From a virus, in the IMG/VR virus record IMGVR_UViG_3300025889_000076, positions 1-64,000 of that record: a DNA stretch of 64,000 bases. One strand, 5' to 3'. Of the stretch, positions 3,794-56,893 are shown in pieces. Numbering within the stretch: position 1 is the stretch's first letter; the number at the start of each line of letters is the position of its first letter. The translations under genes and the position numbers were made by a program. The notes beneath the pieces are model-generated. The model searched no databases and was not told where the DNA came from. It saw only the letters and a program-made list of their open reading frames with translations.

Positions 3794-5426
3794 AAAAAGA
3801 ATTTTATTTGTCTCCGAAGCTAGTTACTTAAATACTGGCTATGCTACATATAGTCGAGAAGTTATATCAAGGTTGCAAGCAACTGGAAAATATGACCTTG
3901 CAGAATTTTCTATTTATGGTACTGAGGATCATAAAGAGAGGAGTTCTATCCCCTGGAAGAACTACCCGAATATGCCAAATGGTAGTTCACAGGAACAGCA
4001 AGAAGATTATAAGAGCGATGGAGCTAATCAGTTCGGAAAATGGCGTTTCGAAAGAGTTTGTATAGATTTCAAACCTGATCATATTTGTTCAATAAGAGAT
4101 TGGTGGATGGATTCTTATATTCAGCATTCACCTTTAAGAAAGTACTTTAACTGGATCTATATGCCTACTGTAGATGCCAGCCCTCAAAATGAAGAATGGA
4201 TTGATACATTTTCTAGTGCTGACACTGTTCTAACATATTCTGATTGGGCTGTAGATGTTCTAAAAAATGCAAATCCTAATATGAACGTTAAACGTTCCGC
4301 CACACCATCTGCTTCTGAAGAATTCAAACCAGTGCTCGATAAGAATGCCCATAAAGTCAAAATGGGTATTAACCCGGATTGGAAAATTATTGGCACAGTC
4401 ATGAGGAATCAACGTCGGAAATTATTCCCCGAATTATTTGAAGCTTTCGGTAAGTACTTAAAAGAGACAGGTGAAAAAAATACCTATCTTTACTGCCATA
4501 CTTCTTACCCTGATAATGGTTGGGATATTCCTAAGTACCTAATTGATAGTGAGATTATATCAAGGGTATTATTTACGTATGTTTGTGGAAATTGTAATAA
4601 TGTGTCGTATAGTCATTTTGCAGATACGGTCCAGCCTTGTCCTACTTGTGGACAGTTCTCATCTAAATTAAGTAGCGTATCTTCTGGTGTTAGCAGAAGT
4701 GTATTATCTAATATTTACAATATCTTTGATGTTTATATCCAGCCAGCATCATCTGAAGGATTTGGTATTCCTGTCGTAGAGGCAGCAGCCTGCGGAATTC
4801 CAGTCATGGGAACAGACTATTCGGCAATGGAGACCGAGATTAGAAAACTTAATGGATATCCTATCAAAGTTAGATCTAAACATTTAGAAATGGAGACGGG
4901 ATGTGACAGGGCTTTACTTGACTTAGATCATACTGTAGAAATATGGAAAGAGCTATTAAATAAGCCTCAGTCTCTACGTATTCAAGATAGCTTAAAAACC
5001 AGGGAATCTTTCGAGAAGCACTATGGCTGGGACAAAACGGCAAAAGTCTGGGAAGAAGAAATAGACCTTTTAGATTTCTCTGACTGGACAGTAGAACCTA
5101 TGATGGCAAATCCTACCGCTTTGCCTAATAAAGAAATGAATAATAAAGACTTTCTTGATTTTTTGATTAATGTGACTCTGAACGAACCATCATTAGTTAA
5201 TACATATCCTTTTAATAAACTTCTTAGAGATTTGAACTTTGGTATGTTCCGTAATAATCCGGGAGGATTTTTCTATGGTGAACTTTCTATTTTTAATAGA
5301 GAAGAGTATAGACCTTTAAGTCGTGATCAAATTGTGGCGATGTTTACTGAAAAGGCCAAAAATAAAAACTTCTGGGAACAAGCCCGTTTAGGATTAATAA
5401 ATTTTAAAACAGAAAGTTGGCTATGA
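3786..5426 (+). CDS. GT4-type glycosyltransferase with zinc-ribbon insertion
   Basis: A 546-residue GT-B fold enzyme. The N-terminus (RKRILFVSEASYLNTGYATYS) has the glycine-containing acceptor-side motif. The C-terminal donor domain has the GT4 hallmark SSEGFGIPVVEAAACGIPVMGTD near residues 325-345, including the ExxxxxxxE-like motif that binds the nucleotide sugar. An unusual insertion near residues 265-295 contains two CxxC pairs (CGNCNN and CPTCG), likely a zinc ribbon. The C-terminal 120 residues after the GT domain are unassigned. It opens a run of sugar-related genes with overlapping ends. The acceptor cannot be told from sequence. Confidence 0.85.
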   Translation: MRRKRILFVSEASYLNTGYATYSREVISRLQATGKYDLAEFSIYGTEDHKERSSIPWKNYPNMPNGSSQEQQEDYKSDGANQFGKWRFERVCIDFKPDHICSIRDWWMDSYIQHSPLRKYFNWIYMPTVDASPQNEEWIDTFSSADTVLTYSDWAVDVLKNANPNMNVKRSATPSASEEFKPVLDKNAHKVKMGINPDWKIIGTVMRNQRRKLFPELFEAFGKYLKETGEKNTYLYCHTSYPDNGWDIPKYLIDSEIISRVLFTYVCGNCNNVSYSHFADTVQPCPTCGQFSSKLSSVSSGVSRSVLSNIYNIFDVYIQPASSEGFGIPVVEAAACGIPVMGTDYSAMETEIRKLNGYPIKVRSKHLEMETGCDRALLDLDHTVEIWKELLNKPQSLRIQDSLKTRESFEKHYGWDKTAKVWEEEIDLLDFSDWTVEPMMANPTALPNKEMNNKDFLDFLINVTLNEPSLVNTYPFNKLLRDLNFGMFRNNPGGFFYGELSIFNREEYRPLSRDQIVAMFTEKAKNKNFWEQARLGLINFKTESWL

Positions 5427-8891: not shown

Positions 8892-9657
8892 ACATGAACA
8901 AATTATTCGTAGTATGTATAAAAAAGGATGCAGTAGTTATGAGATTGCTGAACATCTAAATACTTATTCTACAAAAATTTTAAGGGCTTTAAAGTATCTT
9001 GACATTGAGGCTCGTGACTATGAGACGGCACAGAAAATTGCTATTAAAAAAGGACGGAGTAAAGTTCCAATAGAAAAAGGAGCGACTCTTACTGAGGCAC
9101 ACAAGATCGCCGTTTCTGAGGGCAGGGCTAAGGCGTGGTCTGAAGTATCGGATGAAGAACGTGCGAGACTGTCAGAGATCAGCAAGGCCCAATGGGCAGC
9201 AATGAGTGAAGAAGAGAAGCAAAATCTCCGCTCATTAGCCGCCGCTGCCGTCCGCGAAGCGGCTGTAGATGGCAGCAAAACTGAAAGATACCTCAGAAAA
9301 ACCTTGACAGAAGCGGGTTGGTCTGTTAGATTTCACGAGAAAAATTTACTTCCTGGACAAACCTTGGAAATCGATCTTTTTGTGGCTGACTTGAAGACAG
9401 CGATTGAAATTGACGGACCTTCTCACTTTTTACCAATTTGGGGGGAGCAAAAATTACAAAAGCACCAGAAAGCTGACAATAGAAAAGCAGGTCTTTTGAT
9501 GTCAGCCGGATATGTATTAATTAGAGTTAAACAGATGACGAAAACACTCTCCCAGCACAAACTTAGATTAGTGTCTGAGAGAGTATTGGAGGAACTTCAA
9601 AAAGTTCACCAGAAATTTCCCGACCCCGCAAATAGACTTATAGAAATCGAGGTTTGA
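8875..9657 (+). CDS. Vsr-like / DUF559-type endonuclease with N-terminal HTH
   Basis: The C-terminal half has the restriction-like fold signature EIDLFVADLKTAIEIDGPSHF near residues 165-190, with a K-D-K-x3-L motif (QKADNRKAGLL) and a final GYVLIRVK strand, as in Vsr/DUF559 nucleases used by mobile homing-type elements. The N-terminus is a helix-turn-helix (HEQIIRSMYKKGCSSYEIAEHL) that likely recognises DNA. The middle (residues about 75-125) is Ala/Glu-rich, probably coiled. It overlaps the previous gene by 17 bases. It is plausibly a free-standing homing endonuclease that mobilises this region. Confidence 0.75.
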   Translation: MNFAIEHEQIIRSMYKKGCSSYEIAEHLNTYSTKILRALKYLDIEARDYETAQKIAIKKGRSKVPIEKGATLTEAHKIAVSEGRAKAWSEVSDEERARLSEISKAQWAAMSEEEKQNLRSLAAAAVREAAVDGSKTERYLRKTLTEAGWSVRFHEKNLLPGQTLEIDLFVADLKTAIEIDGPSHFLPIWGEQKLQKHQKADNRKAGLLMSAGYVLIRVKQMTKTLSQHKLRLVSERVLEELQKVHQKFPDPANRLIEIEV

Positions 9658-9659
9658 TT

Positions 9660-10469
9660 TTGGCTAAAGCAAGTATAGGATTTAGTATTGATAATACTAT
9701 CGAAAAAGAGATGAAATCATCACTAGAAAGCTTTATAGCTTCTGTTGAAGATAACGATACGTATTCTTTTGATGATCTAAGTAATAAAGATAAAAAGGCC
9801 GCATATTTGTCTACTCATTGGGACTCTTTTGTTATGTCCCAATTTGATGAATCAGAATTGACTGATGGATATCCAAGAGTAAATGGGCTACGACGTGTAG
9901 CTGAATTACTTCTAGGTGATATTATTAAGAGTTGTCCGACTGAAGTTTATCCTGTGGCTCAACGCGATGAGACTCAGCGTTCTACCGTTGTGCATTCTAT
10001 TACTTTCTTATGGTTTGATAAAACGGAGAGGACTTATGCTGAAGTAGCTGATTGTTATTCCGGTAATCAAGATCCTGACTTTTTGGTTTATTCTCCATCT
10101 ACAGCTTCGACCAGAGCAGAAGCCAGAGCACTTAGAAAAGCTTTAAAACTTAAGAAGTGTTCTTTTGAAGAAATCAGCCATGTAGAGAATAATCATAGAA
10201 CATTAGAGAAAAAGAATAAAGCTGGGAGTGGTGCTTCTAGACCTGATCCTATTTCTTCTTCTCAAATAAGGTTTTTAGATAAAAGATGCAAAGATCTTGA
10301 TGTGGATGTAATGAAACTAATTAATCAAGGGCAGGGGAGATTCGATGCTATAGAAAATATGACAAAAGTTGAAGCTAAGGAATTGATTGATTTCTTAGCT
10401 AAAGTTTCTGCTGGAAAAGAAGAAATAGACAGTTTTATTAAAGGTTATAACCCAAATTGGAGAGATTAA
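9660..10469 (+). CDS. probable single-strand annealing / recombination protein
   Basis: The likely start is TTG at 9660, with GAGG upstream (another TTG lies at 9654). The core carries DGYPRVNGLRRVAELLLG near residues 75-95, then TYAEVADCYSGN and STASTRAEARALRKALKL. This pattern is that of phage DNA-annealing proteins of the Rad52/ERF-like type. The C-terminal stretch SSSQIRFLDKRCKDLDVDVM...MTKVEAKELIDFL resembles the small C-terminal domain found in many such annealing proteins. It follows the nuclease gene and precedes a zinc protein. Family assignment is by motif only. Confidence 0.55.
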   Translation: MAKASIGFSIDNTIEKEMKSSLESFIASVEDNDTYSFDDLSNKDKKAAYLSTHWDSFVMSQFDESELTDGYPRVNGLRRVAELLLGDIIKSCPTEVYPVAQRDETQRSTVVHSITFLWFDKTERTYAEVADCYSGNQDPDFLVYSPSTASTRAEARALRKALKLKKCSFEEISHVENNHRTLEKKNKAGSGASRPDPISSSQIRFLDKRCKDLDVDVMKLINQGQGRFDAIENMTKVEAKELIDFLAKVSAGKEEIDSFIKGYNPNWRD

Positions 10470-11042: not shown

Positions 11043-11154
11043 CTAAGTTGGCAACTGGCTGTTAAATAGTTGTCGGGATCGGACGCCTTATGGTGGTGAT
11101 AACCTGAGCGGTAACCCCGAAAGCGTTACGCTGGATTCGTAACCAGCACTTTAA

Positions 11155-11225
11155 AGGCGATTAGTTTAATGGTAGAACGGTGGTTTTACATACCACAAGA
11201 GAAGGTTCGATTCCTTCATTGCCTA
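11155..11225 (+). tRNA. tRNA-Val(TAC)
   Basis: The cloverleaf shows acceptor AGGCGAT with ATTGCCT, D-stem GTTT/GAAC, anticodon stem GTGGT/ACCAC with loop TTTACAT (anticodon TAC), and T-arm GAAGG-TTCGATT-CCTTC. No CCA is encoded. It immediately precedes the tmRNA acceptor piece. Confidence 0.9.
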
Positions 11226-11317
11226 CTGGTTGCCAGACCTTAAAACTGGATAAGCATGTAGAAGTTATTAAATTAGCAAAACAGGACGCGGGGGGCAGAA
11301 CCCCGCTACCTCCACCA

Positions 11318-11403
11318 AAGGCACAGACGAGATAGGAGACGACGGGTAGTAGTGACTGATCACCACACTTGACGCAGGAATCCCGTACTGCTGTGTCTCT
11401 GGC
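11318..11403 (+). other. tmRNA intervening segment
   Basis: These 86 bases lie between the encoded CCA end of the acceptor piece and the 5' G of the coding piece. In permuted tmRNA genes this loop is cut out by tRNA-processing enzymes. It contains a possible GCACAG...CTGTGT pairing near its ends that would bring the two cut sites together. Confidence 0.6.
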
Positions 11404-11494
11404 GGGGGTAAAATAGAATCGACTGGTTGTATAAGTTAATAGCTGCATGTCGTAGTTGGACCAAGGCTACGTTAAAATGGTCTAAACAATAATT

Positions 11495-11524
11495 GCAACT
11501 CGTAATTATGCGTTGTCTGCGTAA
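11495..11524 (+). other. tmRNA tag-peptide reading frame
   Basis: The resume codon GCA starts the frame GCA ACT CGT AAT TAT GCG TTG TCT GCG TAA, giving ATRNYALSA. The end closely matches ENYALAA of the enterobacterial tag, including the hydrophobic C-terminus used by Clp proteases. The stop is part of a GTCTGC-GTAA-GCAGAC hairpin (11515-11530), as in canonical tmRNA. Confidence 0.85.
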
Positions 11525-11538
11525 GCAGACGGGGGTTT

Positions 11539-11570
11539 GCCAGCACCTTCTAACCCAAGCTGGCATTTTT
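11539..11570 (+). terminator. rho-independent terminator after tmRNA
   Basis: GCCAGC (11539-11544) pairs with GCTGGC (11559-11564) and is followed at once by ATTTTT. Its placement at the end of the tmRNA coding piece fits termination of the RNA cluster. Confidence 0.65.
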
Positions 11571-11589
11571 CTCTAAAAAAGGAAGAATA

Positions 11590-11693: not shown

Positions 11694-11766
11694 GTCGCAG
11701 TAGCATAATTGATAATGCGGCGAACTGTTAATTCGTAAGATACAGGTTTGAGTCCTGTCTTCGCAG
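11694..11766 (+). tRNA. tRNA-Asn(GTT), acceptor stem imperfect
   Basis: The D-arm (GCAT/ATGC), anticodon arm (GCGAA-CTGTTAA-TTCGT, anticodon GTT) and T-arm (ACAGG-TTTGAGT-CCTGT) are all good. The acceptor strands GTCGCAG and CTTCGCA form only four of seven pairs. Both ends share CGCAG in direct orientation, as if one end had been rearranged. It is either a decayed tRNA or one that depends on unusual processing. Confidence 0.6.
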
Positions 11767-12817: not shown

Positions 12818-14020
12818 ATGTTACGTAGAACATTTCTTAAATCAGTAGCTCTTGGTGCAGGAGCGACATATTGCACCCCATCAATGGCGGCAAAACCAGA
12901 TAATGAAAAGTCCGTTATCTCTATCCATCTTCAGGGCGGAATTTCTGCCGTTGATTTCATTAATCCTATTCCAGATGCACCACCCGAATTCAGATCTTCT
13001 AGAGGGTCTGTTGACGCCGGTGGTTTTTTATTGGGTGGTGACTTTAGACAGATGGCAACGCTGGGCGATAATATGACTATTGTCCGATCAATGAAATTTA
13101 AGGATGCTAATCATCAAACCGCAACAATGGCTCACATGACCTCTCATTTTCACGTTCCTAACGCTGGACAACGTGAACCCAGCTTCGGTTCTCTTATAGC
13201 TAGAGAGTATCTGCCAAACAGCCCAAAGTCAGGCATTCCACATTATGTAAAGCTAAGAAACATTGATGGCGATGATGCCGCATGGCTAGGTATCCGATAT
13301 AACGGATATGACGCCGATGACGAGGGCGTTAAAAATATGAGTCTTCATAACGGAGTAGACTCGAAACGATTTGATACTCGCCTAAAAATGATGTCAATCA
13401 TAGATGACACAGCTAATCTCCCCGGACTGGGCACTGACTGGACAGATTTAAAAAATATGGCTGTCAACATTATTAGGGGAGATGCAGCCGAAGCTTTCGA
13501 CCTAAGTCAAGAGCCTAACTCAATTTACGGCGATTCTCGATTTGGTAAAGATCTTCTTCTTGCTAGACGATTGGTTGAGCGTGGCACTAAGTATGTTAGC
13601 TTGAATAGTAATGCGGGCTGGGATAATCACAGCAATATAGATGCCGCATTTGCTCAAAACGCTCCCGGATTAGATAATGGTATCTCCACACTTATCACGG
13701 ATCTTAAACAAAGAGGATTGTTAGACAATACATTGGTAATTCTCTGGAGCGAATTTTCTCGGACAAAAATCAATATGAATGGCGGAAGAGACCATAATCC
13801 AAACACTAACACTCTTGTGTTATTTGGGAAGCATGGTAAAGGTGTGATTGGACAGACTGATGATCATGGGTTGGTCAGTATGGGGGACACCTATTCACCA
13901 TCGGACCTGGCATGGACTATTGGTGACCATATGGGGCTTGACAAACGCTTGACAATCAAGGATAATAGCGATAGACCACGTCACGTTTTTAAAGATGACG
14001 CTAGAAACATACTTTCTTAA
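12818..14020 (+). CDS. Tat-exported DUF1501 protein (alkaline-phosphatase-like fold)
   Basis: The first 25 residues are a twin-arginine signal (MLRRTFLKSVALGAGATYCTPSMAA), and the body matches DUF1501. It has ISIHLQGGISAVDFINPIPDAP near residues 35-56, NHQTATMAHMTSHF near residue 98, AGWDNHSN near residue 266, and LVILWSEFSRT...GRDHNPNTNTL near residues 308-332. The metal-binding-type Asp, His and Ser/Thr arrangement is that of the alkaline phosphatase superfamily. The family is abundant in Planctomycetes. It is complete at 400 residues, with a well-spaced purine-rich start. Its substrate is unknown. In a phage it could act in the host envelope or periplasm. The gene has a neighbouring second Tat-type gene (14554). 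Confidence 0.85.
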   Translation: MLRRTFLKSVALGAGATYCTPSMAAKPDNEKSVISIHLQGGISAVDFINPIPDAPPEFRSSRGSVDAGGFLLGGDFRQMATLGDNMTIVRSMKFKDANHQTATMAHMTSHFHVPNAGQREPSFGSLIAREYLPNSPKSGIPHYVKLRNIDGDDAAWLGIRYNGYDADDEGVKNMSLHNGVDSKRFDTRLKMMSIIDDTANLPGLGTDWTDLKNMAVNIIRGDAAEAFDLSQEPNSIYGDSRFGKDLLLARRLVERGTKYVSLNSNAGWDNHSNIDAAFAQNAPGLDNGISTLITDLKQRGLLDNTLVILWSEFSRTKINMNGGRDHNPNTNTLVLFGKHGKGVIGQTDDHGLVSMGDTYSPSDLAWTIGDHMGLDKRLTIKDNSDRPRHVFKDDARNILS

Positions 14021-53809: not shown

Positions 53810-56800
53810 TTAATAAACCCCATTCATTTTTTCTGTATACCAGTTAGGACCAAGAAAAACAGCCTCGGTTTTTTTATTACTATCTGGCACGGAAGCAAAG
53901 CCTCCATAAATTTCATAAGAGTCTTGAATGCGGGCGTTACGAGCTTGTCGAGCAGCCATATTAGCCATTAAAAGTGCTGAATATCGGTCTTTTCTCAGTC
54001 TATCTTTCTTGCCCACACCTGTCTTAACTTCTGGTGTATTCCACTGATCTCTACCTGTAGGAGTCTGACGAATTTCTATAAGACACAGTTCATCCTTCAA
54101 TGCCTCAATTTCCATCACACAATCTTCCAAAGTATCATAAGTTCTGTTACTGGCTTTATCCTGTTCAATAGACAATCCAATTGTAATAGGATCAAATCTG
54201 GGGAATAGAAGAACTTTATCTTCCAGATCTTTTCTTAGACCATGATTAGCCTCAGAGAGCCAGTCATATTTCGCAAACTGGCATAATTCTAATATATGAA
54301 GACCCTGTTCGTCGTCAGTATCTTTTTCCTTGTCTTCATCGATAACAGGCCAAATAGGAAGTTCTCCTGGTAGAAGCCTAACAGGATCATGTAAAGCTTC
54401 AGCTACAGCAATTCCGCCACCTTGAGCATCCATTGCGATATGAATAGTTGGAAAAGCCCCCATTAGATCACGAATACGTCTGGCACAATATGCGTAGAAG
54501 TCCCCTTCTTCTGTTAATCCGCGTTTTAATCTCTCATTATACTCTTTTCTTGTAGTAGTCCAAACATGAGCTATTCTTCTATGATCTGAGTTTACTTCTA
54601 ATACAACAATCGAAAAATTATCGACTTCAGATGCAGGGTCTACACCAATAATATATTGCTTATCAATTTGCCCCTTTAGTGAGGGGTCAAAGTATAAGTC
54701 GCCAGAAGGTAACTTGATTGGTTTTTGCTCAGAACCCGTACATGCTTCAATCAAACTTCTCTTAAAGAATCCTGCACTATCTGTACAGAAAACAGCACTA
54801 AATTCCATCAGATAAATGCCGTTATGTACGGTAGCCTTAGAACGGGCTACTTGAGCGTCATCCATAAATCCTTTAGGAATTAACTCAAAAGGCATTCTAA
54901 TAACTGAATAATCTTTCCAGTTGAAACTATCCGGCACTTTTTCTTCGCCAAAAGTCTCTTTAAGCTTGACAGGATCGCCCTTAGAGTTTATAATTGAACG
55001 CCATCGTTTCCAATATGTTGAGAAATGATTAAAGTCATAATAAGCTGTTCCTGATAAAACAATCTGGTTACCAAAGTCTTCATTGGCAAAGTTTTCTTGT
55101 AAAAGAGAAAGGTCATATCCTCTTTGTTTTGCAAGATTTTTAGCTGCGGCTAATTTGACGCCTTCGGACGGTGATGAGGAAACGGCACCAAAACCGGCAA
55201 TAACGTTTTCGAATATGTCACGGGACTGTGAAGCAAATTCGTCTGCAATGATATCATTTGCTCTTAGTCCACGAATCTTTTGACCATCACCCACAGGAAT
55301 AGCGGTTACTGTACTGCTATTTATAATCATTCGGCACATGTCTACATCACGACGAGGCCCGCTATTAGAATCACATAAATCTCTTAATATAGGAGATTTC
55401 TTCCAGATGGTTTCCATATATTCATGAAGAAATTTAGACTGACGAAAAGCTGCTCCAATAACTACAACTTTTCGTTCAGGCATAATTAATGCACGCATTA
55501 ATGAATAAAGGGATAGGAGAAAGGTATTGTGAGTTACAATATAGTCTTTAGTGATGTATGTATGATCAGGACTATCCACTGAGATACATTGCATCTCTTC
55601 AAATTCATTTACATATTCCGCAGATATTAAAGAAGTATATTTCTCACGAGAAGTCTGGTTATTTTTTAACCTCTCTACTTTTCTAGGTAGCTTAAAAACC
55701 TGTTTAGAGGTGTTGATAAAGACTCTATAGTAAGGATTACGTGGGATTTGTTTTCCACGAATTTCGGAATAACTACCTGATCTATCGTCAATCTTCAATT
55801 GGCAGCTAATTCCTAAACTTCTTAAGACTTCTATTAAATCTTTAACCAGTTTTTCGCATGAATTAGTAAATTCAATAGCTCCATTTTTATTACAAGACCC
55901 ATCCGTATCTAACAGACCTCTAACAATCTCCATCCTCTGCTCTACCGATGAAGTCTTATATTCTTCTGGAATAAATTTATCTTTACATCCTACATTTAAT
56001 TTCATTCCTTCAATTATACTAACTAATCGATTACCATCTCTTTTATAGAATGATTTGCCCTTTTTAGAAAATCTTTTATTTAGTTGTTTATCTATGTCAA
56101 CGATTGTGTAGTTGTTATTACTAGAATCTTTCTTAATTTCAAATCCGTCTAATCTAGTTCTAAACTGCTCAATAATGAACGCATCGTCACTGGCAATTTT
56201 TGGCGTTCTGGTTGTCATACATCCATCACCAAGTAGACATCCCAATATATATGGATCTAAAGGTAGTTGTTTTTCTTCATACTGAATTGGCTCAGTCAGT
56301 GGAAGCTTATACTTATAAGCCCATTTACCAGGAGACGAATAAAATCTAACCCCGTCATTAATAATATCTTTGGTAGATACCGTAACTTCCTTCTGTTGTT
56401 TTTTCATTACCCATAAATGATCTTCGCAGCAATCAATCTCTCTACCATCTGCAAATTTTAATCTACAAACTTGTTTCTTGCCTTGTGGATAAATACCAAC
56501 TATATTACATAATTTTCCGTTCCTGGAATACACTTTATGATTATAAGTAATATCGCCCATACGAACCCATCCTTGGTCAGTAAGCAATGGTTCTGTACAT
56601 TTAGTTGCTTTCCCAACGCCACGACTACCAATCAGCATGGGAAACTTTCGCTTCCAGATTTCCTCAAGCATAAGTCCTTGAAAAGGGACAAGGTCTATAT
56701 TCAATATGTTCTTACAGAGAAAACAGAAGTACTCAGGCTGTATCATTAGCCAGGTAAACGTCTTGTAAAATTCCTCTGGATCGTCTGTAGTGAGTAAATC

Positions 56801-56893
56801 GAAAGGCTTACATAACTCATTTTTATTATAATTAATATTAAGCCAAGCATCATTAAGTTCGGATAATATTTCTACTCTTAAGCGTTCAGTCAT
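53810..56893 (-). CDS. terminase large subunit (TerL) carrying a class 3 intein
   Basis: The spliced protein would have 666 residues. Its ATPase domain has Walker A GSRGVGK + T split by the intein, and a Walker B-like DIIADEFA. The C-terminal nuclease domain has YIIGVDPASEVDNFSIVVLE, HIAMDAQGGG and DRYSALLMANMAA, the conserved acidic set of TerL nucleases. It cuts and packages phage DNA together with a small subunit. The 361-residue intein (55526-56608) interrupts the P-loop, so splicing is needed for activity. The gene starts at ATG 56893, four bases into the SPFH stop. Confidence 0.9.
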   Translation of the reverse strand: MTERLRVEILSELNDAWLNINYNKNELCKPFDLLTTDDPEEFYKTFTWLMIQPEYFCFLCKNILNIDLVPFQGLMLEEIWKRKFPMLIGSRGVGKATKCTEPLLTDQGWVRMGDITYNHKVYSRNGKLCNIVGIYPQGKKQVCRLKFADGREIDCCEDHLWVMKKQQKEVTVSTKDIINDGVRFYSSPGKWAYKYKLPLTEPIQYEEKQLPLDPYILGCLLGDGCMTTRTPKIASDDAFIIEQFRTRLDGFEIKKDSSNNNYTIVDIDKQLNKRFSKKGKSFYKRDGNRLVSIIEGMKLNVGCKDKFIPEEYKTSSVEQRMEIVRGLLDTDGSCNKNGAIEFTNSCEKLVKDLIEVLRSLGISCQLKIDDRSGSYSEIRGKQIPRNPYYRVFINTSKQVFKLPRKVERLKNNQTSREKYTSLISAEYVNEFEEMQCISVDSPDHTYITKDYIVTHNTFLLSLYSLMRALIMPERKVVVIGAAFRQSKFLHEYMETIWKKSPILRDLCDSNSGPRRDVDMCRMIINSSTVTAIPVGDGQKIRGLRANDIIADEFASQSRDIFENVIAGFGAVSSSPSEGVKLAAAKNLAKQRGYDLSLLQENFANEDFGNQIVLSGTAYYDFNHFSTYWKRWRSIINSKGDPVKLKETFGEEKVPDSFNWKDYSVIRMPFELIPKGFMDDAQVARSKATVHNGIYLMEFSAVFCTDSAGFFKRSLIEACTGSEQKPIKLPSGDLYFDPSLKGQIDKQYIIGVDPASEVDNFSIVVLEVNSDHRRIAHVWTTTRKEYNERLKRGLTEEGDFYAYCARRIRDLMGAFPTIHIAMDAQGGGIAVAEALHDPVRLLPGELPIWPVIDEDKEKDTDDEQGLHILELCQFAKYDWLSEANHGLRKDLEDKVLLFPRFDPITIGLSIEQDKASNRTYDTLEDCVMEIEALKDELCLIEIRQTPTGRDQWNTPEVKTGVGKKDRLRKDRYSALLMANMAARQARNARIQDSYEIYGGFASVPDSNKKTEAVFLGPNWYTEKMNGVY
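55526..56608 (-). other. TerL intein, class 3, with LAGLIDADG homing endonuclease
   Basis: The intein runs from Ala (56608-56606) to the Asn of THN (55528-55526), and the +1 residue is Thr. The N-terminal splicing block lacks the usual Cys1 (ATKCTEPLLTDQGW). Block B is CCEDHLW, with W two residues after the His. Block F has Cys at the Asp position (MQCISVDSP), and block G is YIVTHN with Thr before His. W-C-T together is the mark of class 3 inteins. Inside lies a LAGLIDADG endonuclease (LGCLLGDG and VRGLLDTDGS). Confidence 0.9.

Follow-up and report, generated by a model that had tools for sequence, protein, structure and literature searches.

Introduction

Phage-encoded tmRNAs have been catalogued in several studies: the paper describing OM43 phage Melnitz reported 133 unique tmRNA structures among 402 phages, 53 of the structures being two-piece (PMC9004378), 79 unique phage tmRNAs were listed and the model RF04321 was defined (PMC11915505), and earlier phage cases were listed (PMC4131195). 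The gene described here resembles the two-piece ssrA of Melnitz and its pelagimyophage relatives in tmRNA type and genome size: it is permuted, of alphaproteobacterial type, and sits in a phage genome of some 140 kb that has a few tRNAs. Unlike in Melnitz, no Rfam match to a glutamine riboswitch was found near the tmRNA, and the neighbours are a tRNA-Val upstream and cupin and DUF1501 genes downstream. With cellular alphaproteobacterial ssrA (RF01849; for example, the Caulobacter two-piece tmRNA) the locus shares the permuted order, a GGC-G-A T-loop, G3-U70, the pseudoknot PK1 and a hairpin at the stop codon, but it is more divergent, has an 86-nt spacer beyond the CCA, and encodes a short tag (ATRNYALSA) with neither an ANDN start nor an AA end.

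The original prediction held that such a gene is rarely described in phages, which is true only in part given the 53 published two-piece forms and the 20 viral contigs found here. Permuted phage tmRNAs are already known; this work adds relatives with one-piece genes, differing loci and apparently exchanged tRNA-like domains.

Results

The window, meaning the whole stretch of DNA analysed, comprises bases 1-64000 of a 142,148-base metagenomic IMG/VR virus record. Among its gene products are a tape measure protein, a tail fibre protein and a LAGLIDADG-containing terminase large subunit; the terminase, the tape measure protein and collinearity with other virus records agree with the prediction that a phage genome carries the locus. 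The terminase large subunit gene (53810-56893) probably holds an intein, as indicated by its LAGLIDADG domain; in many relatives a shorter gene covers the same ends. Since the record is metagenomic, cellular contamination or misassembly of the contig was considered, but both flanks of the locus are collinear with other virus records and an 84%-identical copy of the tmRNA is present in a second virus contig (G044), making this explanation scarcely credible.

Searching Rfam with cmscan (Infernal) resulted in two overlapping matches over the cut-off: RF04321 (tmRNA_permuted) at 11254-11524, with 75.3 bits against a gathering cut-off of 47 (E 1.2e-12) and the full model covered (1-213), and RF01849 (alpha_tmRNA) at 11232-11528, with 77.3 bits against a cut-off of 50 (E 2.9e-19) over model positions 40-274 of 355, the outer model ends being unmatched. 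ARAGORN at default settings did not report the tmRNA (11232-11570); relaxed to 60%, it returned several weak calls, one of them a permuted tmRNA whose tag reads ATRNYALSA. No second permuted tmRNA was found elsewhere in the 142,148-base record. Judged from the two models, the structure and compensatory changes relative to the phage homologue G044, the locus is a genuine, structurally conserved two-piece (circularly permuted) tmRNA gene of the alphaproteobacterial type, as had been predicted.

All features are located on the + strand. The tmRNA begins directly after tRNA-Val(TAC) (11155-11226; ARAGORN; Rfam 67.6 bits), with which it likely shares a primary transcript. The upstream (3') piece starts with a 5' hairpin, GCCAG..CTGG (11232-11249; RF01849 alignment), followed by its strand of the inter-piece helices (11254-11287; RF01849 and RF04321 alignments), whose partner lies at about 11423-11450. 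The T-arm (11288-11306; Rfam alignment) consists of GCGGGG, the loop GGCAGAA and CCCCGC; the loop is of the alphaproteobacterial type (compare GGCGGTA and GGCAGTA in bacteria). This piece also includes TAAGCATGTAG (near 11251-11261) and GGACGCGGG (near 11284-11292), and ends with the acceptor 3' strand TACCTCC (11307-11313) and the discriminator A plus an encoded CCA (ACCA, 11314-11317), both read from sequence and alignment. The 86-nt intervening sequence (11318-11403) is expected to be removed; as a ribozyme, tRNA or other structured insert it was rejected (fold z of -0.8 versus shuffles, no Rfam match, unrelated to the G044 spacer).

The downstream (5') piece opens with the acceptor 5' strand GGGGGTA (11404-11410; sequence, alignment), whose G3-U70 wobble is the alanine identity element. 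It continues with the D-loop analogue and the 5' strand of the inter-piece helices (11411-11450; Rfam alignments and pair comparison with G044), PK1 (11451-11483; CGTAGTT/GGCTACG plus GGACCA/TGGTCT), the tag reading frame GCA..TAA (11495-11524), preceded by PK1 and ending in a stop, and the hairpin GTCTGC-GTAA-GCAGAC around the stop codon (11515-11530). A PK2-like element and terminator complete the gene (11531-11570; GGGTT/AACCC with GCCAGC/GCTGGC, then a T-run; aligned with G044, pairing read by eye), with hairpins extending to 11564. The halves are thus swapped as predicted, with the 3' piece before the 5' piece and every motif named in the prediction in its place, including AATCGACTGG in the downstream piece and the tag ATRNYALSA-stop, which relaxed ARAGORN also reads. 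The acceptor stem, described earlier as a perfect 7-bp stem, does have 7 bp, but one is the G3-U70 wobble, so not all pairs are Watson-Crick.

The region 11227-11573 folds 3.6 s.d. more stably than its dinucleotide shuffles (0 of 100 equally stable). The acceptor stem, T-arm and inter-piece helix all form when the joined region is folded freely, and again when the two pieces are co-folded with the spacer left out, the acceptor stem and inter-piece helix then joining the pieces.

The nearest homologue, G044 (IMGVR_UViG_3300031627_001041, 64,780 bases), has its tmRNA at 4308-4529, 84% identical over 169 columns (tree support 100/99; the next nearest, G043, has support 96/95). Its tag is ATRNYTVAA, with the start ATRNY identical in the two phages; its spacer is 38 nt and unrelated, and CCA is not encoded. 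Compared pair by pair, G044 shows no change in the acceptor stem, the T-arm or the first PK1 stem, and two-sided changes in the inter-piece helix (two pairs, A-U to G-C), the second PK1 stem (one pair, C-G to U-A) and the otherwise kept stop hairpin (one pair, U-A to G-U). Only two pairs of the predicted inter-piece fold are broken, both at an internal loop; two further helices of the energy fold, a long-range competitor of PK1 and one across the tag, also lose pairs and lie outside the known tmRNA structure. This covariation, from a single sequence comparison, is supportive of conserved pairing and not statistically strong. The two spacers are unrelated and unequally long (86 nt here, 38 nt in G044), which fits a segment that is removed, and together with the kept core helices this argues that the gene is conserved as a two-piece RNA.

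The local gene order is tRNA-Arg, tRNA-Val, tmRNA, a tRNA found only by Rfam, and tRNA-Gly (ARAGORN, Rfam). The Rfam-only tRNA (11694-11765, 49 bits, missed by ARAGORN) has the anticodon GTT as read by eye and is probably tRNA-Asn. The 111 bases between tRNA-Arg and tRNA-Val (11044-11154) contain hairpins with no Rfam match and a fold not better than shuffles. Downstream of the tmRNA are a cupin gene and a DUF1501 gene, and the same two genes (55% and 32% identity, respectively) follow the tmRNA in G044, at a different genomic place; 35 open frames of G044 match this record. G043 has nine matching frames, and its permuted tmRNA is beside yet another orthologue. Near the tmRNA there is one DUF1501 gene here (12818-14020) and three in a row in G044 (L236:5004-8798), and some of the encoded proteins have twin-arginine-like start regions.

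Scores on both models (75-77 bits) are far lower than the roughly 207-300 bits of cellular alphaproteobacterial genes on RF01849, and relatives have no tmRNA at this locus, as could be the case for a decaying passenger acquired from a host, its function lost. We consider this very unlikely: compensatory changes and an intact frame are present in both phages, and the cupin and DUF1501 neighbours common to both indicate that the gene was retained across considerable protein divergence.

The tag ends in LSA, compared with AA in 27/27 readable bacterial tags sampled. AA also ends the other phage tags that the model reads to the stop; those of G040 and G048 are incomplete in the model match and by eye end in ALV. 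With its LSA end, degradation of ATRNYALSA-tagged proteins may be weaker. An end unlike the others sampled could also fit a decoy RNA that, by binding SmpB, synthetase or ribosomes of the host, inhibits or diverts its trans-translation, LSA leaving the tagged products undegraded; inhibition of tmRNA is reported for the reduced phage tmRNA of DS6A (tRNA-like domain only) or for a similar molecule (PMC11915505, PMC4131195). A decoy would have no need of the full mRNA-like part, PK1, open tag and stop hairpin that are all kept here, and the tag of the close homologue G044 ends in TVAA, with the usual AA; we therefore judge it improbable and favour a working tmRNA.

The homologue search pattern resulted in 20 viral contigs, 20/20 with permuted or alpha-type tmRNA matches. 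The upstream gene (9654-10466) or the DUF1501 gene as query found no relatives. Among named phages there was no close DNA match to the tmRNA, and the search for a direct alphaproteobacterial source gave only short matches in 385 genomes. A tree sets the phage permuted tmRNAs apart from the bacterial ones; since it joins long branches and its bacterial rows are only those with the best scores, no origin is claimed from it. Very short permuted tmRNA-like genes, with a spacer of about 6 nt, a reduced upstream piece and tags that by eye end in ALV or VAV, were seen in G040 (L240:13000-13330, with 20 tRNA genes upstream), G048 (L241) and G052 (L245).

Relatives were fetched by terminase, and the lineage comparison comprises four near-full-length records (this one included) plus fragments, all metagenomic. 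Terminase identity is 52-54% for the other three, G015 (153.6 kb), G021 (157.7 kb) and G027 (152.7 kb); each matches this record over 48-55 open frames, for the most part in collinear blocks. A permuted tmRNA over the cut-off was found in 0/37 relatives, whereas G015, G021, G027 and the fragment G023 have a one-piece tmRNA over the cut-off (75-118 bits). These are of the same lineage by terminase and gene order and likewise have one tmRNA each, but they are unpermuted, lie at another locus, have the tag G(T/E)TQLALAA and do not encode CCA. Their locus is between the orthologues of record genes 77363-78643 and 81296-81619; G015, G027 and G023 show both of these neighbours and G021 only the second. 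A remnant of a one-piece tmRNA at the syntenic locus of this record (about 78.6-81.3 kb) was rejected: none was found by Rfam on most of the stretch or by nhmmer on the whole record, and blastn gave only short matches of chance size. At 79,280-80,990 of the record, outside the window and where relatives carry the one-piece tmRNA, degenerate 12-base units (CTCGCAGTTAxA) form an array of 1.7 kb, with short frames that by eye consist of SQLx tetrapeptide repeats ending in LERDSE-stop.

The tag-bearing bodies of the one-piece genes pair one way (89% identity for G015-G027 and for G021-G023, 74-75% across pairs) and their ends another (80% at the 5' and 84% at the 3' end for G027-G023; 50% and 58%, respectively, for G015-G027). 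The G021 gene (G021:18945-19301) is one-piece yet has the T-loop GGCAGTA, a form found in permuted genes of alphaproteobacteria. This suggests that the tRNA-like domain was exchanged separately from the tag-bearing body, although convergence may be the explanation instead. Another virus contig, L101, has a one-piece tmRNA whose start resembles permuted genes.

Discussion

The phage most probably has a working two-piece tmRNA that performs trans-translation with host SmpB and keeps ribosomes available during infection. Neither the record nor five relatives yielded a recognised SmpB, so use of the host protein is most likely. In this model, host tRNA-processing enzymes would cut the tRNA-tmRNA transcript at the acceptor stem and the 86-nt spacer would be lost, leaving two pieces held together by acceptor-stem pairing and the long inter-piece helix. 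The molecule would be charged by host alanyl-tRNA synthetase via G3-U70, and with host SmpB it would enter ribosomes stalled on broken mRNAs, add the tag ATRNYALSA and free the ribosomes for use in infection. From the sequence we infer that the RNA is transcribed, processed, charged and used with host SmpB, that the phage benefits, and that the host is an alphaproteobacterium. The roles suggested in the original prediction, tagging of stalled proteins and bypass of a host shutdown, are plausible.

That close relatives have the one-piece form at another locus indicates exchange of the gene type within one phage lineage, whether by gain, loss or replacement; two further members, G044 and G043, have permuted genes at other loci again, and a few queries of open-access full text found no paper on such an exchange. 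A tmRNA of some form in all three near-full-length relatives argues that the function is kept. It is possible, if rather uncertain, that the lineage keeps a tmRNA while the gene is repeatedly replaced (one-piece or permuted, at several loci, with the tRNA-like domain exchanged separately from the tag-bearing part), so that the rescue RNA would suit the SmpB, synthetase and ribosome of whichever host is newly taken up.

The analysis confirms a tmRNA gene that ARAGORN overlooks at default settings, and it brings together related phages that all retain a tmRNA but vary in its form, locus and tRNA-like domain. With this set of phages one can ask whether selection maintains ribosome rescue and adapts it to the host.
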